A DNA stretch of 26,786 bases from a virus. The stretch is taken from positions 1 through 26,786 of IMG/VR virus record IMGVR_UViG_3300036826_000482, one strand, 5' to 3'. The first letter of the stretch is position 1; each line of letters starts with the position of its first letter. The position numbers and the translations under genes were made by a program. Shown piece by piece: positions 1 to 26,665 of the stretch. The notes under the pieces are model-generated. The model was given only the letters and a program-made list of their open reading frames with translations, was not told the DNA's origin and did no database searches.

Positions 1-2285
1 GCCTGGGTATAGGGCTGCGCGCGTTGTTGTTGCATCTGGGCCATCTGCTGTTGCTGCATGATTTGCTGGTGTTCGGCGAGGTGGCCTTCTTGGAGGCGCT
101 GGATGGGGGGGGGCCAGGCTTGTTGGTCTTCGCCCTTGGCGGTGTTGGCGTGTTCGCGGGCGTGGACCATGTGGTTGTCGACGGCTTGGCGGACGCGGGG
201 GAGCTTGAGGGTTTGCAGACCGGCTTGCTGGAGGGATTGGGCGAGAAGCGCGAGGGTTTGGGCGTAGGGGACGGGCTGGCCGATCTGCTGGGCTTGCTGG
301 TCGGTTTGTTGAAAGGCGAGGGCGACGAGCTGGACGGCTTGGGGGTTCGCGGCAAGCTGGGCGAACTGCTCGTCTTCCATGATGGCGTTCTTCGAGTCGA
401 GTTTCATGGCGGGGACGAGGTCGGTGCGCTGGTAGACCTGGAGGATCTTGTAGTTGGTGTCGGGGTCCTGGGGGTTGATGATGCCTTGTTGCACCAGGTC
501 TTGCATTTCGGCGCGATCGACGAGGGTGGAGCGGGGCATGCCGGAGCCGGCTTCGGGCTGGACGTCGACCTGGCCGGAGAGGTCGGCGCCGAGGAATTTC
601 TGGATTTGCCAGGCGCCGTCTTTGCCCTGGATCTTCGTGAGGCGCGGCTCGGTGACGAACTGGCGGAAGAGCTGGAGGAGGAGGCGGCCGGCGTGGGCCC
701 AGGCCTGTTCCCAGAGGATGAATTGTGAGCCGAAGCGGGACATGGCGCGTTCCTGGACGGCCTGGATGGCGACGGCGGCGGAGACGCCGGGGGGGCGGTT
801 GCCCTTGAGGACCTCGTAGGTGGAGGCGGCGTCTTCCATGTCCTGGTCGCACTTGTCGATGAGGGCGAGGAAGCCGGAGGGCAGGCCCTGGCCGGGGACG
901 CGTTCGGGTTTGGCGGGGTTGGGGCCCAGGGCGTTGTAGCGGATGATTTCGCCGGGGTAGCCGGTGAAGCCGGTGACGTTGCTGCCCTCGGGGAGGAACC
1001 AGACGGGGTTGCCCATGCGCATCATGATCATGAGCACGATGGACTCGAGCTGGTTGCGTTTTTCCTGGAGAAGGGCGAGGTCATCGGCGGGGGTTTTGCT
1101 CCACGCGGTGCCCGGGACGATTTGCTCGGGGAAATGCACGTGCGGCAGCAGCGGCTCCTTCTTGCCCGAGGCGGCGAGCGCGTAGTACGGCAGGGGGCCG
1201 GCTTTCGCGAGGAGGCTCCGGCCGAGGCGGACGGCGAGGAGGCCGTCGGGGAAGTCGGCAGTGGGGGCTTGCCAGAACCAGGTCTCGGAGATGCGCTGGT
1301 GCGGCATCTGGTGCATGCCGTACGGGGTGTTGTAGACGTTGCGGCGCTGATCGCCGAGATTGGGGCCGAGGGTGGGGAGGTTCGCTTCGTAGAGCTCGGA
1401 GAGCGTGCCGCCCATGTCCGGCTGCAACTGATCGGCGAACTGGGGCCAGCGCTGTTTGCAGTCGTCGAGATCGACGGCTTTCTTGCGGGCGTATTCGGTG
1501 ACCTTGGTCCAGTCGGCGACGGCGGGGTCGAAGTACATCTCGAAGCACGGGACCACTTCCGCGTACATCTTGCCGATGGGGGCCTCGTCGCCGACGGGGG
1601 CGCCCTGATCGTTCTGGGCGGGCATCAGGAGGCCACTGCCGCATTCCTCGCAGGTCGACTGGCCGGGGCCCTGCAGATTGCCGCAGTTGAGACACTGATC
1701 GGACTGCACCACGGTCATGCCGTGGGCGGGGTCGTTGTCGTAGCCGAACTCGAGCCAGGCGCCCGGGGTGAGGGCGACCCAGGCGGCCAGGTGCTGGCGC
1801 ACGAGGCGGATGTTGATTTCATCCTCGATGGCGGGCATGACTTTCGCGGCGACATCGGCGGTGGCGCGGTCGTCGGGGTCGTCGGTGGCGGGGCGGAAAT
1901 TCAGGACGGGCTCGACGCGCGCGAGGACCGCCATGTAGGCGGCGATGCAGGAGGCGAAGCGGTTGGTGACGGGGCGCGGCGTGCCGGGTTTCAGATCGCG
2001 CGGGGCGAAGCGGCCGAGGGCGCGGTTGTAGATGATCCACTGATGGCCGCGATAGAAGAGGATGTTGCGATGGGCGGAGATGATGATGTTCTCGCGCCCT
2101 TTCTCCCATTTCTGCATGCGGCGCGTGATGAGGTCGAGGATCTTCTGCTCGTTCTGGTAGGGATCGGGCGGCGCGAGCGCGCCGGGTCCGGGCGGGGCCA
2201 TGCCGCCCGTGGCCGACGGCATCGGAGGGAGCCCGAGCCCGGGACCCGACGGCGCGGCGAGACCGGGAGCGAGGGGACCAGCCAT
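1..2285 (-). CDS. Portal protein (P22-like size), C-terminus cut by window edge
   Basis: The frame opens at an ATG at 2285 and runs 761 codons without a stop to the left edge, so the true C-terminus is outside the window. Portal proteins form the dodecameric ring through which DNA enters and leaves the head. The call rests on the long acidic/aromatic body, on the N-terminal segment QKILDLITRRMQKWEKG (about residues 47-63), typical of portals, on a helical Gln-rich C-terminal part (from about residue 690), and on the position in one operon with the terminase. The first 42 residues are Pro/Gly/Ala-rich. An unusual feature is a zinc-ribbon-like insertion with Cys198, Cys201, Cys212 and Cys215 (CLNCG and CEECG). 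A TGGAGG Shine-Dalgarno lies about 7 bases before the ATG, inside the preceding mini-gene. The portal role is inferred from sequence appearance and context; confidence is good but untested by profile search. Confidence 0.82.
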   Translation of the reverse strand, partial: MAGPLAPGLAAPSGPGLGLPPMPSATGGMAPPGPGALAPPDPYQNEQKILDLITRRMQKWEKGRENIIISAHRNILFYRGHQWIIYNRALGRFAPRDLKPGTPRPVTNRFASCIAAYMAVLARVEPVLNFRPATDDPDDRATADVAAKVMPAIEDEINIRLVRQHLAAWVALTPGAWLEFGYDNDPAHGMTVVQSDQCLNCGNLQGPGQSTCEECGSGLLMPAQNDQGAPVGDEAPIGKMYAEVVPCFEMYFDPAVADWTKVTEYARKKAVDLDDCKQRWPQFADQLQPDMGGTLSELYEANLPTLGPNLGDQRRNVYNTPYGMHQMPHQRISETWFWQAPTADFPDGLLAVRLGRSLLAKAGPLPYYALAASGKKEPLLPHVHFPEQIVPGTAWSKTPADDLALLQEKRNQLESIVLMIMMRMGNPVWFLPEGSNVTGFTGYPGEIIRYNALGPNPAKPERVPGQGLPSGFLALIDKCDQDMEDAASTYEVLKGNRPPGVSAAVAIQAVQERAMSRFGSQFILWEQAWAHAGRLLLQLFRQFVTEPRLTKIQGKDGAWQIQKFLGADLSGQVDVQPEAGSGMPRSTLVDRAEMQDLVQQGIINPQDPDTNYKILQVYQRTDLVPAMKLDSKNAIMEDEQFAQLAANPQAVQLVALAFQQTDQQAQQIGQPVPYAQTLALLAQSLQQAGLQTLKLPRVRQAVDNHMVHAREHANTAKGEDQQAWPPPIQRLQEGHLAEHQQIMQQQQMAQMQQQRAQPYTQ

Positions 2286-6433: not shown

Positions 6434-6865
6434 CTATGCGCCTTCGCCGAGGTGCCGGAGATACCGGCGACGAGCGTTCTGACAGATCTGGCATGTGCGC
6501 TGCGTCCGCCAGCGCCGTCCTTTAAGCAACGTCCGGCTCACATACGGGTGCCCCAACGGACAACTGGATTTCTCCGCATTCCGAGCCGCGCGCGTCTCAC
6601 CTCGGAGAAGGTTCACGCGCATCGTCACTGGTTCTAAATGCCGTGGGTTCACACAGCTGCGTACACGACAGAGGTGGTCCAGCGTGAGCCCGCGAGGGAT
6701 CGGCCCGACGTATTGTCGGTAAACGTAACGGTGGGCGCTGGACGTGACGTTATCGCGACTGCGTAAACCGTATCCCGCCGGCGTGATTCCTCCGAGCCAT
6801 AACCAGCAGCCCGAGTTGGGTTCCGGCATGAACGACTCATCCAGGTCGCGGGGCTTCGGTCGCAT
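6434..6865 (-). CDS. HNH homing-type endonuclease
   Basis: A 143-residue protein with a classic phage HNH architecture: GCWLWLGGITPAGYG near residues 19-33, AHRYVYRQYVG at 44-54, and the HNH core LDHLCRVRSCVNPRHLEPV (Asp63-His64, Asn73, His76). The C-terminal part has CPLGHPY (Cys102, His106) and CQIC (Cys125, Cys128), a second metal-binding pair set often seen in these enzymes. It acts as a metal-dependent DNA nicking or cleaving enzyme. The gene is the first of the leftward unit and sits directly upstream of the terminase. HNH proteins next to TerL assist cos cleavage in several phages; alternatively it is a free-standing homing endonuclease. The start is the first ATG after the divergent region. 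Confidence 0.9.
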   Translation of the reverse strand: MRPKPRDLDESFMPEPNSGCWLWLGGITPAGYGLRSRDNVTSSAHRYVYRQYVGPIPRGLTLDHLCRVRSCVNPRHLEPVTMRVNLLRGETRAARNAEKSSCPLGHPYVSRTLLKGRRWRTQRTCQICQNARRRYLRHLGEGA

Positions 6866-8863: not shown

Positions 8864-9829
8864 ATGCCGACACTACAGCAGCTCCAGCAGCAAAAGCTGC
8901 GCGCCACGCGGGCGGCGGCGGGCTATCAGCCCACCCCGCGAGCGCAAGGTAATACGTTCCAGAACCTCGTCAACCAGTTGAAGGGTGGCGGCGGGATACA
9001 ACCAACCGCTCCAGCGCCGACCCGGCCCACCCAGCCGCCGGGTATGGGCGGCATGGGCGGTGCGATCGGTGGGGCGACGCCCGGGCAAGGCATGGGCGGT
9101 GCGATCGGTGGGGCGGCGCCTGGGCAAGACATGGGCGGTGCCATGGGCGGGCTCTGGGCGACACAACCGATGGGCGGCGCGATTGGGGGGGCGACCCCCG
9201 GGCAGCCGCAAGACATGGGCGGCCTGACCGAGCCTCCGCTCGCGTGGCAGATCAATGCCATGCAGCAGCAGATGAGCAATCCGAATTATCAGGATCCGCA
9301 GGTCCAGGAGAACATGCGGCAACAGATCGAGCGCATGAAACAGCAGACGGCGATGGGCGGGAACTCCGGCTGGCCCAAGGATGCCAGCGGCAACCCGACG
9401 GTCCCGGGCTACATTCAGTACGGCGCTGGTCCCGCACCCACCGGGGCCGAGGGCAACCAATACGGTCAGTACGGCGCTGGTCCCGCACCCACCGGGGACA
9501 ACCCGCTTGCTCCCTTCGGCGGTGGCCCCACCGGGCCGGTCAATCCGCCCGCCAACCCGCTCGCTCCCTCCGGCGGCGGCCCCACCGGGCCGGTCAATCC
9601 GCCCGCCAACCCGCTCGCTCCCTCCGGCGGCGGCCCCACCGGGCCGGTCAATCCGCCCGCCAACCCGCTCGCTCCCTCCGGCGGCGGCCCCACAGCCCTC
9701 CGAATGAGCCCCAATCAACGGGACTACAACCGGATCATGGCAGCGCGCGCCCAAGCGGCCCAGGCCCCGGCGCCGCGGCCTCGCATGGCGCCCCGTCCGA
9801 CCGGCCAAGGACTCTCGAGCTTGTACTGA
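8864..9829 (+). CDS. Repeat-rich Gly/Pro protein, 321 residues, GLSSLY tail
   Basis: A basic Gln-rich N-terminus (MPTLQQLQQQKLRATRAAAG) is followed by imperfect GMGGAIGGATPGQ repeats (about residues 60-120), a short helical Gln/Met-rich segment (LAWQINAMQQQMSNPNYQ and on to about 160), two copies of YGAGPAPTG (186-194, 203-211), and an 18-residue repeat NPLAPSGGGPTGPVNPPA in almost four copies (from residue 213). The C-terminus is basic and ends TGQGLSSLY, echoing the tails of the two small proteins encoded from 6966 and 7148. Such a protein is expected to be largely disordered. The start is separated from the previous stop by GCC (TAAGCCATG). It may be a flexible minor virion protein; no family was recognised. 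Confidence 0.7.
   Translation: MPTLQQLQQQKLRATRAAAGYQPTPRAQGNTFQNLVNQLKGGGGIQPTAPAPTRPTQPPGMGGMGGAIGGATPGQGMGGAIGGAAPGQDMGGAMGGLWATQPMGGAIGGATPGQPQDMGGLTEPPLAWQINAMQQQMSNPNYQDPQVQENMRQQIERMKQQTAMGGNSGWPKDASGNPTVPGYIQYGAGPAPTGAEGNQYGQYGAGPAPTGDNPLAPFGGGPTGPVNPPANPLAPSGGGPTGPVNPPANPLAPSGGGPTGPVNPPANPLAPSGGGPTALRMSPNQRDYNRIMAARAQAAQAPAPRPRMAPRPTGQGLSSLY
9041..9223 (+). repeat. Degenerate GMGGAIGG-coding repeats
   Basis: Four imperfect copies of a unit coding for (G/D/P)MGGA(I/M)GG, mostly followed by (A)(T/A)PGQ, within the 321-residue gene. Copies are irregularly spaced, indicating older or partly diverged expansion. Confidence 0.7.
9500..9693 (+). repeat. 54-base tandem repeat, about 3.6 copies
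   Basis: Units start at 9500, 9554, 9608 and 9662 and code for NPLAPSGGGPTGPVNPPA. Copies two to four are nearly identical at DNA level while the first has a few changes (TTC for TCC, GGT for GGC), which suggests recent in-frame expansion. Length would be expected to vary between relatives. Confidence 0.9.
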
Positions 9830-10806: not shown

Positions 10807-12099
10807 ATGGCAGGACAAACCACCGTTGGCGCCGATTCCATCCTCAAGGACGTCTACGAGGGTGGGATCCGCGAACTGATTCCGACCAAGACCGTCGCGC
10901 TCTCGATCTTCGAGGACGGCGACAACTCGGCCTGGTCCGGCCGCGAGATCGTCTTTCCCTCGCGCGTCGGCCGCAACCAGGGCGTCGGCTCGGCGACCGA
11001 GGCCGGCAACCTGCCGACCGCGGGCTCGCAGAAGTACGCCCAGACGCGCATTCCCTGCCGCTATCTCTACGGGCGCATCACCTTCACCGCCCAGGCGATG
11101 GCGGTGTCGGAATCGAGCCGCGGCGCCTTCGCCCCGGTCATGCGTCAGGAAATGGACGGCTTGATCAAGGATCTGCAGAACGAGCGCGGCCGACAGATCT
11201 ACGGCGACGGCCGCGGCGTCCTCGCGCTCGTCAACGGCGCCTCCTCCGGCACGACCGTCACCGTCGATTCGCCGGGGAACTTTGCCGGCGCTACCAACGG
11301 CGCGCGCTTCATCAATCCCGGGGAAATCGTCGCGTTCGTCAATCCGGCCACCGGCGCGCTCCGCACCAGTTCCGTCCGCACCGTGCAGGCCATCGCTTCC
11401 GACGGCACCACCTTCACGATCGATTCCGCGCTGTCCGTCACCGACAACGACTACGTCGTGCGCGCCCAGACGACCGGCATCACGGATGTCAGCGACACCA
11501 GCTACGGCAAGGAAGTGATGGGCCTGGCGGGCAGCGTCGACGACGGGACCAACGTGCCGACCTATCACAATATCTCGCGCACCGCGTATCCCATCGCCGC
11601 CTCCACCGTCATTGCGGGCGTGGGCGCGTGGTCGCAGGAGATCGTAATGCGCGGCCTCGACGTCGCCGATCAGCGCGGCGGCGGGCAGGCCTCCGATCTC
11701 TTCGTGCATCACTCTCTGCGCCGCGCCTACATCAGCTCCACCGATCCGGACCGGCGCTACATGGCCGGTGATCTCATGCGCCCCGACGAGGGCACCGCCG
11801 CCGCCAAGCAGGCCACGCTCACCTTCGGCGGCATCCCGATGCACACCGACAAGTACGCCCCCTACAACACCATGTTCGGCATCGATCGCCAGGGCTGCAC
11901 GCGCTACACCCTCAAGGCCGGCGAGTGGGCGAACGAGGACGGCGCGATCCTCTGCCGCATCGGCACGGGCAACACGGCCACCGATGCCTTCGAGGCCTTC
12001 TATCGCATCTGGGACAACTTCCACTTCGACTATCCCAATCGCTCGTTCCGTCTCGATGGCTTTACCGGCACGACGGTCATCGTGGCCCACGTGGATTAG
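10807..12099 (+). CDS. Major capsid protein (HK97-type)
   Basis: A 430-residue protein beginning MAGQTTVGADSILKDVYEGG and continuing IRELIPTKTVALSIFEDGDN, an N-terminal arm seen in many phage major capsid proteins. A likely E-loop region follows (SAWSGREIVFPSRVGRNQGV, residues about 41-60), then the spine helix (FAPVMRQEMDGLIKDLQNER, about 108-127), a beta-rich insertion (about 140-225), and a C-terminal A/P-domain region with FGGIPMHTDKYAPYNTMFGI. The size and order of elements match HK97-fold shells. The position just after a scaffold-like gene and the strong Shine-Dalgarno support it. The arm motif TT..AD.ILKD.Y is mirrored by the mini-frame at 4472-4528. The fold is inferred by eye. Confidence 0.88.
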   Translation: MAGQTTVGADSILKDVYEGGIRELIPTKTVALSIFEDGDNSAWSGREIVFPSRVGRNQGVGSATEAGNLPTAGSQKYAQTRIPCRYLYGRITFTAQAMAVSESSRGAFAPVMRQEMDGLIKDLQNERGRQIYGDGRGVLALVNGASSGTTVTVDSPGNFAGATNGARFINPGEIVAFVNPATGALRTSSVRTVQAIASDGTTFTIDSALSVTDNDYVVRAQTTGITDVSDTSYGKEVMGLAGSVDDGTNVPTYHNISRTAYPIAASTVIAGVGAWSQEIVMRGLDVADQRGGGQASDLFVHHSLRRAYISSTDPDRRYMAGDLMRPDEGTAAAKQATLTFGGIPMHTDKYAPYNTMFGIDRQGCTRYTLKAGEWANEDGAILCRIGTGNTATDAFEAFYRIWDNFHFDYPNRSFRLDGFTGTTVIVAHVD

Positions 12100-12548: not shown

Positions 12549-12998
12549 ATGAGCAACGTCGCAACGCTCTATCAGCTCGCCTGTCAGCGCTCCTACGAGC
12601 GCGACGGCTACCAGGATCTGGTCAACGGTCTGAAGCAAGTGGCGCGGCAAGAGGTGTACTCGGACGCGATGGTCTCCTCACGCGCGGTCGGGGGGGCGAA
12701 GGCCGATCTGGTGACCAATGCCGCCGTGCGCGTGTACGCGATTCAGTGTGCGATGCCCTCGACGGCCACCACGAACTCCTACCTGCAACTGTTCAACACC
12801 AGTAGCGCGACCGTGACGCTCGGGACCACGGCGCCCGAGTTCCAAGTGATGCTCACCTCCCAGGCCAGTCGCCCGATGGAATTCCCCACGGGCATTCCCT
12901 TCTCCGCCGCGCTCAGTTGGGCCGTCACCACCCTGCCCTCGGGCTCGGTGGCGGCGAACGCGACCAACGCGCCGACGGTCACGATCCTCTATCGATGA
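12549..12998 (+). CDS. Predicted beta-sandwich virion protein, 149 residues
   Basis: The ATG abuts the TAG of the previous gene. The first 45 residues are helical (VATLYQLACQRSYERDGYQD and on). The remainder is a chain of short beta strands with Ser/Thr/Val alternation: AVRVYAIQCAMPSTATTNSY, LQLFNTSSATVTLGTT, and an end strand APTVTILYR. This resembles small jelly-roll or beta-sandwich decoration and baseplate-like phage proteins. The gene at 15428 has a comparable strand-rich C-terminal domain. It overlaps the glycosyltransferase gene by four bases. The function is unassigned, but a virion-surface component is likely. Confidence 0.68.
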   Translation: MSNVATLYQLACQRSYERDGYQDLVNGLKQVARQEVYSDAMVSSRAVGGAKADLVTNAAVRVYAIQCAMPSTATTNSYLQLFNTSSATVTLGTTAPEFQVMLTSQASRPMEFPTGIPFSAALSWAVTTLPSGSVAANATNAPTVTILYR

Positions 12999-13813
12999 TC
13001 TGGATGGAATCCGCCCATCCCCCGGGGGCTCTGGGCGTCACCTGTCAGGAGACGGCCCGGTTCCACCACTTCACGGCCAGCTGGAGCGCCGTCCAGGCGC
13101 CCGCCGAGTCCGTGGAGGTGTGGAGCATGGGCTACGACACGGCCAGCAACAGCAACGAGCTGATCGGGGAAGCGATGCTGTTCTGCGTCGCGTGCAAGCA
13201 CCTGCACACCACGGGAGGGCCCGGGAGCACTCCCCGGTTCCTGCTGCCCTCCAAGAACTGGAAGGAGGATCTCCACCCAGAGTGTCCCCACTGTGCCTGC
13301 ATCCGCTTTCGAGGTCTGGGGTGGGTGTGGCTCATGGACGATGACCACACCTTCCTCCCCCAGACGCTCCTCCGCCTCCTGGACCACCAGGCCGACGTGG
13401 TGCTGCCGCTCTACATCCAGCGGCGGGCGCCCTTCGACCCGTGCATCTACAAGGCCCAGGTGGACGGCGGCTATCATATCTACCACTGGCCTGATCTGGA
13501 CGGCCACCAGGGGCTGCTCGACGTGGTCTCCGGTGGCAAGGGCGGCGTGCTGATCCGCCGCCACGTCATCGAAAAGCTCGAGAGCCCCCGGTACTTCGAG
13601 TGGGATGGCGTCATCGGCGAGGACCACACGTTCTATCGCAAGTGCCGCGAGGCCGGCTTTCGCGTCTGCTGCGATCTCGAAACGCGCCTCGGCCACGTGA
13701 GCCCCGTCATTTTCACCCCCGACTGCGTCGACGGCAAATGGGTGCCCCAGGTGGATCTCCACCATGGCGCCACCGTCACGCTCTGGCCGTCCCGTGGCGA
13801 CGCTGACGCGTAA
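12995..13813 (+). CDS. GT-A-type glycosyltransferase with a Cys-rich insertion
   Basis: A 272-residue enzyme predicted to transfer a sugar from a nucleotide-sugar donor. The metal and donor-binding motif is WLMDDDHTF (Asp115-117). A downstream acceptor and catalytic region reads GGKGGVLIRRHVIEKL, then YFEWDGVIGEDHTFYRKC (Glu209-Asp210), and ends with LGHVSPV (His234). That spacing is typical of family 2-like GT-A enzymes found in phages. Between the first strands and the DxD motif lies a segment with Cys64, Cys67, Cys97, Cys100 and Cys102 (CVAC, CPHC), which looks like an inserted zinc-binding finger. The start overlaps the previous stop as ATGA; an internal ATG three codons later is possible. 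A likely target is a virion protein, or host surface glycans, by context only. Confidence 0.82.
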   Translation: MIWMESAHPPGALGVTCQETARFHHFTASWSAVQAPAESVEVWSMGYDTASNSNELIGEAMLFCVACKHLHTTGGPGSTPRFLLPSKNWKEDLHPECPHCACIRFRGLGWVWLMDDDHTFLPQTLLRLLDHQADVVLPLYIQRRAPFDPCIYKAQVDGGYHIYHWPDLDGHQGLLDVVSGGKGGVLIRRHVIEKLESPRYFEWDGVIGEDHTFYRKCREAGFRVCCDLETRLGHVSPVIFTPDCVDGKWVPQVDLHHGATVTLWPSRGDADA

Positions 13814-14842: not shown

Positions 14843-15424
14843 ATGGCCACCTACACGGCTCCTCCTTCGCCCCCGGTCGAGACCAAGGTCGTCAAAACCG
14901 GTCCTGAAGGCCCTCGCGGCCCCGCCGGCCCCAAAGGGGACCGCGGCCCCATCGGGGAGACCGGTCCCGTGGGCCCTGCGGGCCCCAAAGGACCTCACGG
15001 CCCGCCGGGTGCTCCGGGTCCTGCCGGCCCCGAGGGTCCCATGGGTCCAGTGGGCCCTGCCGGGGGTCCAGGACCCCGCGGAGAGGCGGGCCCGCCCGGT
15101 CCACAGGGCGTAGCGGGCCCCGTCGGTCCTCACGGCCCCCCAGGCGTCGGTGAACAGGGCATCCCGGGCACGCCAGGACCCGTAGGACCGCCTGGCGAGG
15201 CTGGCGCGACAGGTCCAGCCGGCCCGGAGGGTCCTCGCGGCTATACCGGTGAGCGGGGACCCGCGGGCAGCTGTCCAGCGGGCTCCGTCGTCTTCTGGGA
15301 CGAGGAGCATCCCCTGCCCGAGGGCTGGGAGTGGATGCCGCTGCCCCACGTGGGCCAGTACCGCCTGCTCTTCGCCAAGTTCCTGCTCACCGAGCGCTGC
15401 TACCGACCCATGGTCAAGAAATAA
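14843..15424 (+). CDS. Collagen-like virion protein with tail-collar-like C-terminus
   Basis: A 193-residue protein. After a 19-residue Pro-rich lead, residues 20-100 are 27 uninterrupted Gly-X-Y triplets, then a five-residue break (GVGEQ, 101-105), then 12 more triplets (106-141), giving 39 in total. X and Y are often Pro, with charged triplets such as GDR, GPK and GER that stabilise triple helices. The C-terminal 50 residues ([20 protein letters not shown] and on) resemble the G-[ST]-V-x-x-W...P-x-GW signature of phage tail-collar domains, which trimerise fibres. The protein likely forms a trimeric rod with a globular tip. The gene begins four bases after the previous stop. The collagen call is certain at sequence level; exact location in the virion is inferred. 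Confidence 0.9.
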
Positions 15425-17920: not shown

Positions 17921-19612
17921 ATGCCGCACACCGTGGTCGCCGGAGGCGGGCGCGCGGGCCAGGCCCTGCGCACCTACGAGTGCTTCGATTTTCGCGGCGG
18001 CCTCGATGTCGTGACGAGCCCGATCGTGCTCGCGATGGCCAATACGGGCGGGGCGAAAAATCGCCTCGTCGAAGCCACTAACGTCGTCTACAACATCGAC
18101 GGGTCGATCTCCAAGCGCTGGGGCACGCAACTGCTCACCACGCCCGCGGGCCTCAACGGGTTGATCCTCGGCGGCGTCTACTACCGGAAGTCCGACGGCA
18201 CGGCCCTCACCGTCGTGGGCACGCAGGGCGGGGTGCTGTGCAAGATCGTCGGGACGAGCCTCAGCGCGCTCGCCTCGCTCAGCCCCAACGTCTCCAAGCG
18301 GTATAGTTTCGCGGTCTATCAGGACAGGCTGTACATTGCCAACAGCCAGGATCCGCTCTACCAGTACGACGGGACCACGACCGGCCCGACCCTCGGTAGC
18401 TCGCCCGCCAAGCCCACGCAGGTGGTTGCGCACGCCAATCGTCTGTTCGCCACGGACTACGACGTGCGCTCGCGTCTGAGCTGGTGCAAGCTCAACAATC
18501 CCTCGGACTGGAGCGGCGTGGATGACGCGGGCTTCATGCTCGTCAACCCCGACGACGGCGGCATCATCAAGGGCCTCATCCCGTCCATCCAGGAACTGTC
18601 GGTGCTGAAGAGCTACCGCCCGTACCGGCTCCAGGGCATCGGGCCCGTGACGGGCTACACGCTCGCGAACTCGATGACGCCCGCCGCCGGCTCCATCGGC
18701 TGCACCAACATGACGGCGGCGACCTTTGCGGGCAACGACGTCTGGTACATGTCGCAGATGGGCGTGCATCGCCTCAGCGCCACCGATCAGTTCGGCGACA
18801 TCCTTTACGGGCTCGTGAGCGATGCCGTGGAGCCGTTCTTCCGGCAGGATCACGCCTACATGCCCTATGGCGTGGACTACAGCCCCTACATCGGGATGAG
18901 CTATCAGAGCTACGAGCACTTCTACAACAGCTTCATGGCCTGCCACGACCAAGGCAACAACCTGCTCTTCTTCGGCCAGGTGGGCGGGTATCCGCGCGGG
19001 CAGCAGACGGCTACCACGAATGCGATGGACCGCTTTCTGATCTACGACCTGCGTCTGAAGAATTGGGCGGTCTGGCAGACCCACGTCGACGACGGCAGCG
19101 GCAACACGGACTACCCGGGGGAGTTCTCCTCGATGTGGCCCTCCGAGCACGCGCTGAGCCTCGGGTCCACCCCGGAGCTCTGTCTCGGGGCCTATTTCCG
19201 CTCCAACAACACGACGGCCGTGGTGTCGATGCGGCGCGGGCTCACCAACGACGAGACGGCGGCGGGGACGGTGCCCGTCCGCACCTATGCCACGCATATC
19301 ACCGACCTCGGCGCCACGACCGTGCGCAAGTGCCCGCGCCACATCTTCCTCTACTTTGCGCCCGTGACGGCGTCCACCACGATCACACTCGAGATCACCT
19401 ACGACCTCCGGCCCACGCCGGATGTCACGACGAGCTTCGACATCTACGACCCCGCCGTGACGGGACCGCGCGTCGTCAAGCGCATCGATCTGGGCACGCA
19501 CCTCTGCCAGATCATGACCGTGCGGATCAGCAACGCCCGGTTGAGTGAGACCTTCCGATGGCTCGGCTACGAGGTGATGTGGTCCATGCGCCGCGAGATC
19601 ATGCGGGGCTAG
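17921..19612 (+). CDS. Predicted beta-propeller tail protein (nozzle-like)
   Basis: A 563-residue protein whose N-terminus has FDFRGGLDVVTSPIVL (about 22-37), then EATNVVYNIDGSISKRWGTQ. This GGL...N.....G.I..R.G pattern is typical of the podoviral tail nozzle or stabilisation proteins with propeller folds. The body shows repeated strand blocks (YSFAVYQDRLYIANSQDPLY, VVAHANRLFATDYDVRSRLS, GFMLVNPDDGGIIKGLIPSI). It would form the distal part of a short tail and control DNA release. It is preceded by a well-placed Shine-Dalgarno and followed by the tail fibre gene. Structural similarity is inferred by eye and should be tested by profile or model. Confidence 0.75.
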   Translation: MPHTVVAGGGRAGQALRTYECFDFRGGLDVVTSPIVLAMANTGGAKNRLVEATNVVYNIDGSISKRWGTQLLTTPAGLNGLILGGVYYRKSDGTALTVVGTQGGVLCKIVGTSLSALASLSPNVSKRYSFAVYQDRLYIANSQDPLYQYDGTTTGPTLGSSPAKPTQVVAHANRLFATDYDVRSRLSWCKLNNPSDWSGVDDAGFMLVNPDDGGIIKGLIPSIQELSVLKSYRPYRLQGIGPVTGYTLANSMTPAAGSIGCTNMTAATFAGNDVWYMSQMGVHRLSATDQFGDILYGLVSDAVEPFFRQDHAYMPYGVDYSPYIGMSYQSYEHFYNSFMACHDQGNNLLFFGQVGGYPRGQQTATTNAMDRFLIYDLRLKNWAVWQTHVDDGSGNTDYPGEFSSMWPSEHALSLGSTPELCLGAYFRSNNTTAVVSMRRGLTNDETAAGTVPVRTYATHITDLGATTVRKCPRHIFLYFAPVTASTTITLEITYDLRPTPDVTTSFDIYDPAVTGPRVVKRIDLGTHLCQIMTVRISNARLSETFRWLGYEVMWSMRREIMRG

Positions 19613-19615
19613 ACG

Positions 19616-20950
19616 ATGCCGTCTACCCCGGATTACCGCAACGTCGACGCCAACGCCGTGGTGATCGGGCCGCCGGCCATCAGCGGCGTGCTGCAGTCGG
19701 TGCGGATGAGCAACGGCCAGGTGCTGATCGGGCGCAACGGCTACCCGCCCGTGGCGGGCTCGATCGGCTCCTCAGACGGCAGTGTGGACATCGCCCTCGG
19801 CGCCGGCAGCATTGATCTCACGGTGGACCCCGCGATCCGCGACAAGACGATCTCGTCCGTCGACGGTAGCGTCGATCTGGTGACGGGCGCCACGTCGGTC
19901 GATCTCTCCGTCGACCCGACCCTGCGCGACAAGGCCATCAGCTCGCCCGACGGCTCTGTGGTGGTGACCACGGGGCCCAGCACGGTCACACTCACCGTCG
20001 CCAGTGCGCTGCGCGACAAGGCGATCGCCTCCGCGGACAACTCCGTCCAGGTGACGACGGGCGCCAGCGTGGATCTCTCGGTGGCCCGCCCGTACAACTT
20101 CATGTTCAACGGCGACGTGGAGATCTGGGGCGCCGGCACGAGCACCGTGCCCACCGGCTGGGCGGTGAGTGGTGCCGGCGCCCTGGTGTCGAAGACCACG
20201 ACCGCCGCGAATGTCAAGTTCGGCGGCGCCGCCGCGGTGCTCCAGCGGGTGGGGACAGACAGCATCCTCTATCAGAACCTGGTCACTGCCAACCCGCCGC
20301 TGGCCTCGTGGGCTGGCCAAACGATCACCTTCGGCGCCTGGGTGCTGGCCTCCGTGGCCAGCCGGGCGCAGCTATCGATCAACGACGGCGTGGGGACGAC
20401 CCAATCGGCCTTTCACACCGGCAGCAACACCTATGAGTTCCTCACGGTGACGCGCGCCCTCAGCGCCTCGGCGACTCAGCTCCTGCTGGGGCTGCAGATC
20501 GTGACGGGCAACACGACGGCGGTGATGGACGGCGCCATCGTGGTGCGCGGCAGCACCTGCGCGGGCTGGGTGCCGGCCGGCTGGCGGGGCCGCAAGGCCG
20601 TGCTGCAGTTCTCCTCCGGCGGCACCGGCATGACGGCCAACCCGAGCTATTACGGGGGCGGCTTCGCGGCGACCTCGGACCTGGCCCTTCCGTTTCTGGC
20701 CACCCCGTTCAAGGGCGTCGCGCGCAACTGCTACTTCACGAGCACCTCAGGTGGCGCCGGGAGCAACACCTCGGACATCCTGCGCGTGGTCAATTCCGGC
20801 GATACGGTCATCGGCAACACGGGCAACGTCATCTGGTCGGATCTGGTCAACGAGGTGGAGCTGGCCAAGGGGACGGCGCTCTGTATCAAGTCGACCGAGA
20901 CCGGTGGCTACAAGCACGCCGCGACGCTCGAGTTCGAAGAGGTGCCGTGA
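19616..20950 (+). CDS. Tail fibre with N-terminal repeats and carbohydrate-binding-like domain
   Basis: A 444-residue protein. Residues 20-50 contain GVLQSVRMSNGQVLIGRNGY, the anchor-like GQ-L-IG motif of many phage fibres. Residues 52-159 hold three full and one partial repeats of about 29 residues with the pattern S-DGSV.V.TGA.SV.L.V...LRDKAI, which likely form a trimeric beta-helix shaft. From about 161 (NFMFNGDVEIWGAGTS) a jelly-roll similar to carbohydrate-binding modules begins, including WAGQTITFGAWVLAS. The C-terminal 110 residues form another beta-rich tip domain. It would bind the host surface. It follows the nozzle gene by three bases, the expected order. Confidence 0.85.
   Translation: MPSTPDYRNVDANAVVIGPPAISGVLQSVRMSNGQVLIGRNGYPPVAGSIGSSDGSVDIALGAGSIDLTVDPAIRDKTISSVDGSVDLVTGATSVDLSVDPTLRDKAISSPDGSVVVTTGPSTVTLTVASALRDKAIASADNSVQVTTGASVDLSVARPYNFMFNGDVEIWGAGTSTVPTGWAVSGAGALVSKTTTAANVKFGGAAAVLQRVGTDSILYQNLVTANPPLASWAGQTITFGAWVLASVASRAQLSINDGVGTTQSAFHTGSNTYEFLTVTRALSASATQLLLGLQIVTGNTTAVMDGAIVVRGSTCAGWVPAGWRGRKAVLQFSSGGTGMTANPSYYGGGFAATSDLALPFLATPFKGVARNCYFTSTSGGAGSNTSDILRVVNSGDTVIGNTGNVIWSDLVNEVELAKGTALCIKSTETGGYKHAATLEFEEVP
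19769..20092 (+). repeat. Fibre shaft repeats of about 29 residues
   Basis: The tail fibre residues 52-159 show repeated DGSV...TG..SVDL.V...LRDKAI units. The LRDKAIS(S/A) boundary appears at 103, 132 and, as IRDKTIS, at 74. Divergence at DNA level indicates an old duplication. Confidence 0.75.
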
Positions 20951-23200: not shown

Positions 23201-24853
23201 ATGGCGACTTACGCCGAGAACATCGCGCGGGCGAAGGCCAACCGCGCGGGCTATGCGGCCTACAATCAGCCGAGTACGGGGCTCACCGGGCTCGCCCAAG
23301 AGCCGGCACCGAAGAGCCAGTCGATCGACCAGTTGTTCAACACCGAGGCGGCGCGCCAGGGGAAGACGGTCACCGACACTACGCCAGGCCAGCTGGGCGG
23401 CCTCAATACCTTGACGACGACGCCGACGAAGACGACCGCCACGACCAACACCACGCCGGCGAGCACGACCGCCACGACCACCAATACTCAGGAGGCCGCC
23501 CCGGTGGACCTCCGTGGCGCGCAGGCGGCGCTGTCGGCGTATCAGTCACCCGGTACCACGGTCGCCCCTGGCAGCGACACCACCGTGCCGGGCACCGGAC
23601 CCTCCGGAGGGGACATCCCGCCGACGACGCTGACCCAGTTGTCCGACGTGCCTCCGATCCAGACCGACCAGTGGGGCAACATCGTCGCCGGCCTCGCGGG
23701 CCTGGCCGAGAAGCAGTGGGGCGGCTATGGCAATACCCCGCAATACGGCGGGGCCCCGCCAGACACGGCCGGCAACGTGCCGACGGGCAGCACCTACACG
23801 CCGTACACCTTGTGGAACGATGCCACGGCGAACATCTACAATCGCAGCGTCCAGCTTCAGGGGCTCCGCGGGCTGTCGCAACTCGCTGACGATCCGCAGA
23901 ACGAGCAGCGCATCACCCAGCTCTCCCAGGATATCTACCAGCCCCAGGCGCAGGCCATCAACAAGGCAGCCGACCTGCAGCAGCAGCAGATGCTCGAGGG
24001 CACCTTCGGGCGCGGCGTCGGCAACTCCACCATGACGGCGGCCCTGGCGGGGCAACTCGGGCAGGCGCGCGAGCAGGCCCTCGGCAACGCGCAGCAGAAC
24101 GCCTACGTGGCGGCGCGCGGGCAGGCCAACCAGGACCTCGCCGCCTACCAGAATCTCGCCCAGGGGCTCTTTGGGGCCGGCACCTCGGGCCTTCAGGCCG
24201 AGGCGAATGTCGGCCTCGCGAACGCCCAGAACCAGATGGCCGCCGGCCAGTTCGGGCAGGGCATGCAGTTCACCGCCGAGCAGAACGACGCCAACCGGGC
24301 GCTCCAGCAGGCCATGCAGTCCTCGGGCTTTCAGTTCACCGGCGATCAGGCGGCGCTCCAGCGCAATTTCGACCAGAACATGGCGACGATGGGCTATGCC
24401 GTCCAGGCCGGCAGCCAGGCCTCCAACCAGCGCTTCCAGGCCGCCATGCAGCAGTCGCAGCAGAAGTGGCAGCAGGGGCAAACCACCAACAACTACGCCT
24501 TCCAGTCCGCGATGCTGACCGCCCAGCAGCAGTACGACGCCGCGCGCCTGTTGAGCCAGCAGAACTACCAGACCATCCAGGACACGCGCCAGCAGGGCTT
24601 CGAGTCCCAGATGCTCGGCAGCCAGCAGAACTTCACCGCCATCGAGAACGCCAAGAATCAGGGCTGGCAAGCCACCCAGAACGAGGCCCAGCGGCAGTTG
24701 CAGATCCTGCTGCAGACGATGCAGAACGCGCAAGCAGGCGACGCGCAGGCCAAGGCCATGCTCAACGGCAACATCTCCGCGTTCATCAAGGGCCTGGTCG
24801 GCATCTTCGGCGGCATCACCACCGGCACCACGCCGAATCAGGGGGTGGGGTAA
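23201..24853 (+). CDS. Internal/ejection-protein candidate 3 with long 11-residue repeat
   Basis: A 550-residue protein. The N-terminus (MATYAENIARAKANRAGYAA) is helical; residues 70-100 are Thr-rich and probably disordered. From Y302 a regular hydrophobic or aromatic residue recurs every 11 residues (302, 313, 324, 335, 346 and so on up to 500). From 357 these are mostly Phe, Trp or Tyr. The intervening residues are Gln/Asn/Ala-rich with QQ just before the stripe. This is a hendecad pattern, expected to give a long right-handed helical bundle. The final 25 residues are hydrophobic/Gly-rich (FIKGLVGIFGGITTGT). Such a helical rod could form part of an injected channel, by analogy with T7 internal core proteins; this is inference. 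Confidence 0.7.
   Translation: MATYAENIARAKANRAGYAAYNQPSTGLTGLAQEPAPKSQSIDQLFNTEAARQGKTVTDTTPGQLGGLNTLTTTPTKTTATTNTTPASTTATTTNTQEAAPVDLRGAQAALSAYQSPGTTVAPGSDTTVPGTGPSGGDIPPTTLTQLSDVPPIQTDQWGNIVAGLAGLAEKQWGGYGNTPQYGGAPPDTAGNVPTGSTYTPYTLWNDATANIYNRSVQLQGLRGLSQLADDPQNEQRITQLSQDIYQPQAQAINKAADLQQQQMLEGTFGRGVGNSTMTAALAGQLGQAREQALGNAQQNAYVAARGQANQDLAAYQNLAQGLFGAGTSGLQAEANVGLANAQNQMAAGQFGQGMQFTAEQNDANRALQQAMQSSGFQFTGDQAALQRNFDQNMATMGYAVQAGSQASNQRFQAAMQQSQQKWQQGQTTNNYAFQSAMLTAQQQYDAARLLSQQNYQTIQDTRQQGFESQMLGSQQNFTAIENAKNQGWQATQNEAQRQLQILLQTMQNAQAGDAQAKAMLNGNISAFIKGLVGIFGGITTGTTPNQGVG
24236..24730 (+). repeat. Hendecad repeat block coding 15 clear units
   Basis: Residues 346-510 of the protein encoded at 23201 can be cut into 15 consecutive 11-residue units, starting M, F, L, F, F, V, F, W, F, Y, Y, F, F, W and L. 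Four looser units (Y302, L313, F324, A335) precede them. The last two residues before each stripe are often Q-N, Q-G, Q-K or Q-Q. The repeat is at protein level; DNA copies have diverged. Confidence 0.85.
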
Positions 24854-24856
24854 GCC

Positions 24857-26665
24857 ATGGCTTTCGGACTGGGACTCGCGGGACTGATGGGCGGGGTGCA
24901 GGGACTGGGCCTCGGCATGTCGGACATCGCCGACCAGCGCTTCAAGCAGCAACAGTTCGACATCGAGCGTGCGCGGTTGGCTGAGCAGTCGCGGATCGCC
25001 GACGCCCAGCTCGCGATGGAGCAGCGCAAGCAGGCGTGGGCCGAGCAGGCGAACGCGCCGCTCTCGGCAGAGGAAGCCAACCAGGTGATGTCGTATCTCT
25101 ATCCGGGACGCGGTGGAGGGGCGGTGAGTGTCGGGGGCGCACCAGCCGGAGTCACTCCAAGAGATGTGGCGGTCCGGGAAGAGATCGGCGGCCCAGGACC
25201 GTTCCAATTCTCCATGCCGGCCGTCCGGCCCCCAGCCCCCGACCCAGGGGTGGATATGCCTGGGGGGATCAATCCAGCGGTCCTCACCAAGCTGCCTCGT
25301 CAAGTGGTCGTGCCGATCCTTCAGGAAGCCGTGAAGCAACGGATGCTGGATCAGGCGGATGCGATCAAGCAGCGCAACGCCATGCGGGATCGGGCTGTGC
25401 TGGCCTCGACGTTCGACATTCCAGGACCAAATCAGCTCGCCTACAATCTCATCCCTGGCGAGGATGAAGAGGCGGCGGCGTTCATTCCCCGCGTGCCGGG
25501 ACCCCCGACCCCCGAGAATGCCGCCGCCGCCAGAATGGCTCTGAGCGGGCAGCCCTTGAAGGACATTCTCGCGTGGCAGGAAGCGCAGCGGACAAAGGCC
25601 TTCATGGACGTCATCGCGGCCCGCATGAGTGGTGGTGGCCCGGGCGGGCCGTCCGGACAGGTGACGACCCGCGTCGGGGTCTCCGGGGATAAGCCGAATG
25701 TCGAGATCACGGAGTCGCCGGTCCCGGTCAATGACCCCAACACAGAAGCGCAAGCGCTCGGGTATCCAAGCTATGAGCAGGCGCCCTTGGAGGTCAAGGG
25801 CAAGATTCTGGCGACGATCGAGCAGAAGAAACTGGCCTACGCCAGGGCGCAGCAAACGAGCCAGATCGATGTGAACCTGGACAAGCCGTATTCGCCGGCG
25901 GAAGCGGGTGAGCTCAACGTGCCGATCGGCACCACGCCGCGCCAAGCAAGCGCCATGGGCATCACGCCGAAGTCGAGCCAAGAGCGCAATCGCATCGACA
26001 ATATGCGGACCGCCGCGGCCATCATCGACAATGTTGAGCGCAGCATTTTCGAGGGTGATCCGAAAACCGGCTTGCCCCCGATCACGCTGCCCAAGACCCC
26101 GGAAGACCGGCTCTGGAATGCCCCAGGTACGGCTATGGATATGTGGCTCCAGAGAGATCCTGGGCTGGTCGCCCTCAACGGGCGCATCAAGGCCAGCATG
26201 GCACCGATGATCCGGGCACTCGGTGAAGTCGGCACCCTGACGGACCAGGACATCGCCCGCGCAAACGCCTTATGGCCAACGATTGGTCCAGTCCCGGATA
26301 CCGAGCCTGTCGTGCGAGCCAAGCTCAGTGGACTGCGTGACCTCGTCAACGAGATTGCCGACCGCACGAGGGGCGGTGGAGCACCCAGAGAGGGAGGCCA
26401 GGCGCCGTCGTCGTCTTCGGAGAGGCCTGCGGATGCATGGTGGCGGTCGAGCAACCCGGCGGTCGATGACCTTCTCGCGAACACACCGGGCGCCGGCTTG
26501 CCGCTGCCAGCAAAGAGCGGCGCGGTAGTCCGCGGCAAGCCCCAGAACGAGACCAAGCCGCCCCAGCCGTTGAGCCGCACCAATCCCAACTACAAGAGTG
26601 CCAAGCAGCACGGCTGGTCGGACGAGAACATCGAGAAATACTATAACGTGCGGATCGTGGACTGA
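24857..26665 (+). CDS. Internal/ejection-protein candidate 4 (602 residues)
   Basis: The N-terminus MAFGLGLAGLMGGVQGLGLG is a Gly/Leu membrane-active-like segment. It is followed by a coiled coil (DQRFKQQQFDIERARLAEQS to about residue 66) that resembles the QQQYDAARLLSQQ part of the previous protein. A Pro/Gly-rich region and long charged helices follow (RNRIDNMRTAAAIIDNVERS). The C-terminal 90 residues are disordered and end in a small motif (SAKQHGWSDENIEKYYNVRI). It is the largest complete gene of the unit. Gene order and composition suggest a virion-internal protein. No transglycosylase or peptidase motif was seen. The gene starts after TAAGCC and ends overlapping the next ATG. Confidence 0.65.
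   Translation: MAFGLGLAGLMGGVQGLGLGMSDIADQRFKQQQFDIERARLAEQSRIADAQLAMEQRKQAWAEQANAPLSAEEANQVMSYLYPGRGGGAVSVGGAPAGVTPRDVAVREEIGGPGPFQFSMPAVRPPAPDPGVDMPGGINPAVLTKLPRQVVVPILQEAVKQRMLDQADAIKQRNAMRDRAVLASTFDIPGPNQLAYNLIPGEDEEAAAFIPRVPGPPTPENAAAARMALSGQPLKDILAWQEAQRTKAFMDVIAARMSGGGPGGPSGQVTTRVGVSGDKPNVEITESPVPVNDPNTEAQALGYPSYEQAPLEVKGKILATIEQKKLAYARAQQTSQIDVNLDKPYSPAEAGELNVPIGTTPRQASAMGITPKSSQERNRIDNMRTAAAIIDNVERSIFEGDPKTGLPPITLPKTPEDRLWNAPGTAMDMWLQRDPGLVALNGRIKASMAPMIRALGEVGTLTDQDIARANALWPTIGPVPDTEPVVRAKLSGLRDLVNEIADRTRGGGAPREGGQAPSSSSERPADAWWRSSNPAVDDLLANTPGAGLPLPAKSGAVVRGKPQNETKPPQPLSRTNPNYKSAKQHGWSDENIEKYYNVRIVD

Follow-up and report, generated by a model that had tools for sequence, protein, structure and literature searches.

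Analysis of a 26,786-nt window, an IMG/VR virus record, revealed a protein, P0001, in which a hydrophobic and mainly aromatic stripe recurs every 11 residues. Judged from alignment with two firm orthologues, the stripe is a module of variable length, flanked by a conserved part on either side. Sequence and gene context indicate that P0001 likely belongs to the ejection (internal virion) module of its P22-like podovirus, where it would occupy the P22 gp7 slot or one close to it. Given membership of this module, we consider the chance even that the stripe forms an oligomeric conduit helix; the two taken jointly, leaving aside which face lines the lumen, fall a little short of an even chance. Module membership is fairly secure, whereas we infer tube formation.

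The window is a fragment of a P22-like podovirus, judging from its P22_portal match and gp10-like hub. The features that define the context of P0001 are as follows.

3..2285, minus strand: portal protein of P22 type (Pfam P22_portal 1e-13, PHROG 156 portal 4e-26), running off the left end
10807..12099, plus strand: major capsid protein (PHROG 14242 4e-48; 47% identity to podovirus ctLwi270)
17921..19612, plus strand: P22 gp10-like head-closure/hub protein (PHROG 8040 'head closure Hc3', E=5e-4)
19616..20950, plus strand: fibre-like protein, next after the hub (role assigned from position alone, with the gene order of L002/L005 as reference)
23201..24853, plus strand: CDS of the striped protein P0001, 550 aa; orthologues share its gene position
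24857..26665, plus strand: next gene, 602 aa, probably another internal virion/ejection protein (G001 conserves residues 376-503)

The P22 gene order used for comparison runs portal, coat, adaptor, gp10-type hub, needle or fibre, ejection genes. The P22-type portal and the hub are present here, and the large terminase (phrog_38 match) and the portal lie on the strand opposite to P0001. The fibre-like gene is followed by four consecutive genes, namely two without family match, the P0001 gene as the third, and the 602-aa gene, which ends close to the right end of the window. The initial annotation had placed P0001 after the fibre gene; this placement is correct, several genes downstream and ahead of other likely ejection proteins. 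The major capsid protein shares 27-29% identity with those of Arthrobacter and Microbacterium phages, and the hub shares 24% with the 'phage stabilization protein' of ctLwi270. No single-protein relatives of the hub or the 602-aa protein were found in IMG/VR and GenBank phages, and no family match was obtained for the fibre-like protein. A hub alignment across relatives was dropped as too divergent. The idea, formed by eye, that the 602-aa protein has a C-terminus like that of Sf6 gp12 was rejected as not significant (probability 5.8% against Sf6 alone; 16.7 with a combined profile against a shuffle maximum of 20.7).

Several other elements were observed in the window. An HNH endonuclease gene (6434-6865, minus strand) adjoins the large terminase gene. 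ORF 8864-9829 holds a 54-bp tandem repeat at 9499-9693 (3.6 copies, 97% match, NPLAPSGGGPTGPVNPPA units) and a second, 39-bp repeat at 9050-9141. A glycosyltransferase family 2-like protein (12917-13813, plus strand; weak Pfam match, 4e-4) is encoded among the virion genes, and a collagen-like Gly-X-Y protein (14843-15424, plus strand; Pfam Collagen 7e-19) within the structural cluster. An 811-aa open frame (23546-25981, minus strand) runs antisense to the P0001 gene and its neighbour and probably just reflects the high G+C content and codon bias.

The stripe was read directly from the translation. Residues 302, 313 and every eleventh thereafter to 500 are YLFAMFLFFVFWFYYFFWL, of which 18 of 19 are hydrophobic and 13 aromatic, including an unbroken aromatic run of eight (F412 W423 F434 Y445 Y456 F467 F478 W489). 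This string is exactly that given in the initial annotation. The accompanying count of 19 consecutive hits is slightly generous, because residue 335 is Ala, and the span of 24107-24730 begins one codon too late and ends about ten codons too late; the correct span is 24104-24700. Among the aromatics of residues 300-510, 13 of 18 fell in one phase of 11, whereas the maximum over 20,000 shuffles was 9. In the whole protein, neither period 11 nor period 22 was equalled in 2000 shuffles (0/2000 each, 8-row windows), and periods 7, 10, 12 and 18 were at chance level in the same test. The Fourier spectrum of the aromatics had its maxima at a period of 11 and at the harmonics 5.5 and 2.75. Hydrophobics and Gln gave maxima at 3.65-3.67, i.e., 11/3.

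At 3.667 residues per turn, P0001 presents three helix faces, an aromatic one at 4 degrees, a Gln/Asn one at 107 degrees and an Ala/Gly/Ser one at 247 degrees, none of which was matched in more than 4 of 2000 permutations. The Gln/Asn face (R=0.34) was reached by 0/2000, consistent with a hendecad helix bearing an amide face. AlphaFold2 with six sequences predicted helices at residues 232-269, 281-374, 383-470 and 476-536, at low confidence (pLDDT 50, pTM 0.24; pLDDT was 46 with one sequence). The hendecad-type helix suggested by the initial annotation is supported by the spectral peak at 3.65-3.67 residues per turn and by the long predicted helices 383-470 and 476-536 of this model, whose overall pLDDT is low. 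The monomer prediction yielded the long helices, but its confidence was low, and Foldseek (E<=0.001) returned no fold match in PDB; a PDB sequence search with P0001 returned no match either.

Searches with P0001 as a single protein found no relatives in Pfam, PHROG, GenBank phages or IMG/VR directly. Two true orthologues, G001 (E 1e-14, 34%) and G003 (E 6e-9, 29%), were found via capsid relatives, and in both the P0001 equivalent lies in the same gene position and order. No further orthologues of these two were found in viral or cellular genomes. The parts of P0001 are listed below.

23894..24100, plus strand: conserved helical-hairpin core (residues ~232-300; AlphaFold2 helices 232-269 and 281 onward; orthologue conservation)
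24005..24031, plus strand: hairpin-loop motif FGRGVGNST (residues 269-277; alignments A3, A5 and A6 and motif match)
24104..24700, plus strand: 11-residue aromatic stripe (residues 302-500, 19 positions)
24395..24766, plus strand: segment absent from G001 and G003 (residues ~399-522, most of the stripe; alignment A3)
24767..24820, plus strand: Gly-rich hydrophobic C-terminal segment (NGNISAFIKGLVGIFGGI), kept in orthologues

In alignment A3, G001 and G003 keep the FGRGVGxST hairpin, part of the next helix and the Gly-rich hydrophobic C-terminus and lack most of the stripe, which is why we describe the stripe as a length-variable module. The shuffle test gave no significant 11-residue stripe in G001, G003 or a candidate relative in G005. 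The G-x-G-x-S/T of the hairpin loop is common to orthologues and gut-phage relatives.

P22 gp7 and Sf6 gp11, both assigned to phrog_598 'DNA ejection', resemble P0001 in a broadly similar gene position, after hub and fibre and ahead of other known or probable ejection genes, and in having a helical region with a Gly/Ser-rich turn and a Gly-rich hydrophobic C-terminus. However, they are 230 aa long as compared with 550 aa, and the stripe is absent from both in the shuffle test. The phrog_598 HMM matched neither P0001, nor its orthologues, nor the 23 genome records; therefore, P0001 was not filed in that family. The conserved core matched a profile of P22 gp7 plus Sf6 gp11 weakly (probability 9.6%, E=0.003), with a score of 26.4 where the highest of 80 shuffles gave 24.9, and other phrog_598 members gave no profile match to the core. 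P0001 may nevertheless work like P22 gp7. The stripe would be non-essential to the core function, since P22 gp7, Sf6 gp11 and the nearest orthologues are presumably functional in its absence. P22 gp7, gp16 and gp20 are described as forming a trans-periplasmic conduit (PMC8402733), and Sf6 gp12 is a decameric channel (PMC4755594). The ctLwi270 protein at L002:28755-29816, in or near the gp7 ejection slot, ends in a Peptidase_S74 (endosialidase-chaperone) domain, as does Pseudomonas phage PAE2 protein L189:2246-3154 (PAE2_13, gp7 slot by annotation); such ends are odd for an ejection protein and suggest trimeric assembly.

Similar stripes were found in other phages. An IMG/VR DNA-pattern scan for aromatic codons every 33 bases, which also demanded K/N/Q/H at column 8, returned at least 120 stretches of mixed kinds; Gln/Asn at column 8 of these loci is no independent evidence, because the pattern required it. 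We set aside as of another kind the Cys-rich repeats (L007, L012, L109), a tape-measure-like protein (L014), simple arrays and frame echoes. The proteins of the Cys-rich loci have long arrays of alternating 11-residue Tyr/Cys units (e.g., YSTSCPGYQQA / YLEQQCSINPL) of 15 to 25 rows, a type unlike the striped ejection proteins.

The clearest functional link for the ejection role is a 14-row stripe inside a phrog_598 protein (L124/L194), downstream of an Hc3 hub and directly upstream of a homologue of phrog_2534, the Sf6 gp12 / P22 gp20 family; this phrog_598 member thus shares the 11-residue aromatic stripe with P0001. The stripe of gut phage G024 has 23 hydrophobic positions over 29 rows, and the G024/G025 stripe proteins begin with the hairpin RGMGRSS. 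The P0001-family profile matched these gut-phage proteins with E=6e-5 and probability 65%, above 80/80 shuffled controls. Microbacterium phage Shocker gp35, found independently of the scan pattern, has a stripe at 0/2000 and lies shortly before the gene of a 1743-aa protein; Jasmine gp26, at the corresponding position, has a weaker stripe (57/2000). Like P0001, the Palmer/Page group (phrog_13399), Shocker/Jasmine (phrog_34168) and G024/G025 proteins combine an 11-residue aromatic stripe, significant except in Jasmine gp26, with a comparable gene position and a Gly/Ser-rich turn ahead of the stripe. The PHROG function entry of both phrog_13399 and phrog_34168 is 'unknown'. A profile match to P0001 came only from the gut-phage proteins, whereas Palmer/Page and Shocker/Jasmine are linked by architecture and position. 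In Palmer, Shocker and the gut phages alike, the stripe gene sits between fibre genes and those of large virion proteins. In Bacillus phage Palmer, gp18 comes after a tail fibre and before two proteins, one NlpC/P60 lysozyme-like and one of 1678 aa, and the G024/G025 genes are flanked by NlpC/P60 and 2000-2500-aa proteins; stripe genes of the gut phages and Palmer thus adjoin cell-wall hydrolase genes and genes of 1678-2513-aa proteins. The face arrangement of G024 and L041 is similar to that of P0001, and a P0001-like Gln/Asn face is absent in Palmer gp18, L124 and Shocker gp35. No description of an aromatic 11-residue stripe in podoviral ejection proteins was found in the open-licence literature.

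Similar striped helices occur near DNA-delivery genes of other short-tailed viruses, which makes P0001 a probable component, adjustable in length, of the apparatus by which viral DNA crosses the cell envelope. Indirect support for the ejection role raised in the initial annotation comes from the gene context, from the conservation of the Gly-rich tail and from the stripe of the same kind in a P22 gp7-family 'DNA ejection' protein. We propose that P0001 would be packaged in the head and leave with the DNA, that its hydrophobic C-terminal end would insert in or touch a membrane, and that several copies would associate through their stripe helices in a bundle or barrel. Each helix could then pack its aromatic ridge on the Ala/Gly/Ser face of the next, and the Gln/Asn face could line the DNA passage by analogy with the amide side chains in the phiX174 H tube; for a conduit helix, whether the amide face points toward the lumen is evenly balanced. 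As a straight helix, the stripe would extend ~31 nm (209 residues x 1.5 A), and gain or loss of 11-residue units would alter its reach, such that the number of repeats would set it.

The decameric alpha-helical tube of phiX174 pilot protein H likewise consists of Gln-rich hendecad helices, with N/Q/R at 18/23 inward residues (PMC7354561). In its first three hendecads, the amide face is offset by ~78 degrees from the hydrophobic one, in the same sense as in P0001. However, H has only three hendecads, lacks the aromatic stripe and belongs to a ssDNA phage, and homology to P0001 was not supported by hhalign (probability 0.4%). We counted against the main reading the phrog_598 HMM result, the weak match of the core to the gp7 profile, the low-confidence model with no fold match, the stripe-less counterparts, the absence of a Gln/Asn face in Palmer gp18 and Shocker gp35, and the tape-measure protein (TMP) of TP901-1, in which infectivity survives the replacement of one whole 11-residue repeat by alanines (PMC5099701).

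The gene context and Gly-rich tail would suit any internal virion protein, and ejection-protein folds differ before and after release (PMC8954989). The stripe helices might bundle around or above the portal in the head and help to package or order other ejection proteins, with no transenvelope conduit. We regard this as unlikely, although it is the best of the alternatives: such a role does not obviously need variation in stripe length, and for T7 and P22 the proteins that occupy this slot have been described as parts of the conduit (PMC8954989, PMC8402733).

A long helix with a hydrophobic stripe would also suit a three-stranded coiled coil outside the virion, as in a trimeric tail needle or fibre. 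The Peptidase_S74 chaperone domain is usual in trimeric fibres, and the ctLwi270 protein, at a similar position, and PAE2_13 end in it. P0001 has no S74 domain and ends instead in the conserved Gly-rich hydrophobic C-terminus, and the slot beside the hub is already filled by 19616-20950. Furthermore, a trimer core would be poorly built from a single aromatic site per 11 residues and just 29 Leu/Ile/Met/Val among 209. A needle or fibre is thus improbable.

Slightly less probable still is passive expansion, in which unit duplication left a tolerated, flexible, low-complexity helix with no specific role. Relatives such as G024 and L041 have 11-residue units that are nearly identical; these units, the stripe-less orthologues and the tolerated alanine replacement in TP901-1 (PMC5099701) fit this explanation. 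In P0001 itself, however, the stripe DNA shows no sign of a recent repeat: TRF found no 33-bp tandem unit under it, and the lag-33 nucleotide identity was 0.40 against a background of ~0.33, indicating that the filler diverged while the stripe was kept. The divergence of the filler, together with the retained aromatic stripe and the order of the other faces, indicates selection on the pattern.

Aromatic 11-residue repeats are documented in siphophage TMPs and occur in ~5% of TMPs (PMC5099701). The TMPs of TP901-1 and p2 resemble P0001 in having an aromatic residue every 11 over hundreds of residues and a variable repeat number, and their DNA-delivery function is shared with the role proposed for P0001. 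The claim that an exact stripe of this length is unusual was thus only partly right, given these TMP repeats and the many IMG/VR stripes of similar or greater length. A tape-measure protein of a long-tailed phage is nevertheless very unlikely: although P0001 shows the aromatic 11-residue repeats known from TMPs (PMC5099701), which we reproduced on the TP901-1 TMP, its context is podoviral, with a P22-type portal and hub and no tail-tube or tail-chaperone gene recognised within the window, it had no PHROG match and hence none to TMP families, nor a sequence match to siphophage TMPs, and the TP901-1 repeat region is more hydrophobic (FWY plus LIMV 128/387 vs the sparser 47/209), with Gln/Asn on the opposite face (~156 degrees from the stripe vs ~103 in P0001).

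The 11-residue aromatic repeat is known from TMPs, and what seems new is such a stripe in a probable podoviral ejection-module context. Under the conduit reading, the finding bears on how short-tailed phages stretch the DNA path over envelopes of differing thickness, in a module whose proteins are mostly annotated as 'hypothetical'. A search for the simple signature of a G-x-G-x-S-T hairpin followed by aromatics spaced 11 residues apart would pick out candidate conduit proteins in podoviruses that are not related; it would supply a countable length variable and connect the ejection proteins of podoviruses with the siphophage TMP repeats. More broadly, and doubtfully, podoviruses of diverse hosts might share a modular transenvelope ejection helix built of TMP-like 11-residue aromatic units, with the amide face on the DNA path and the number of units tuned to envelope thickness. 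If true, the stripe would be a tape measure for an injected tube, not for a tail.
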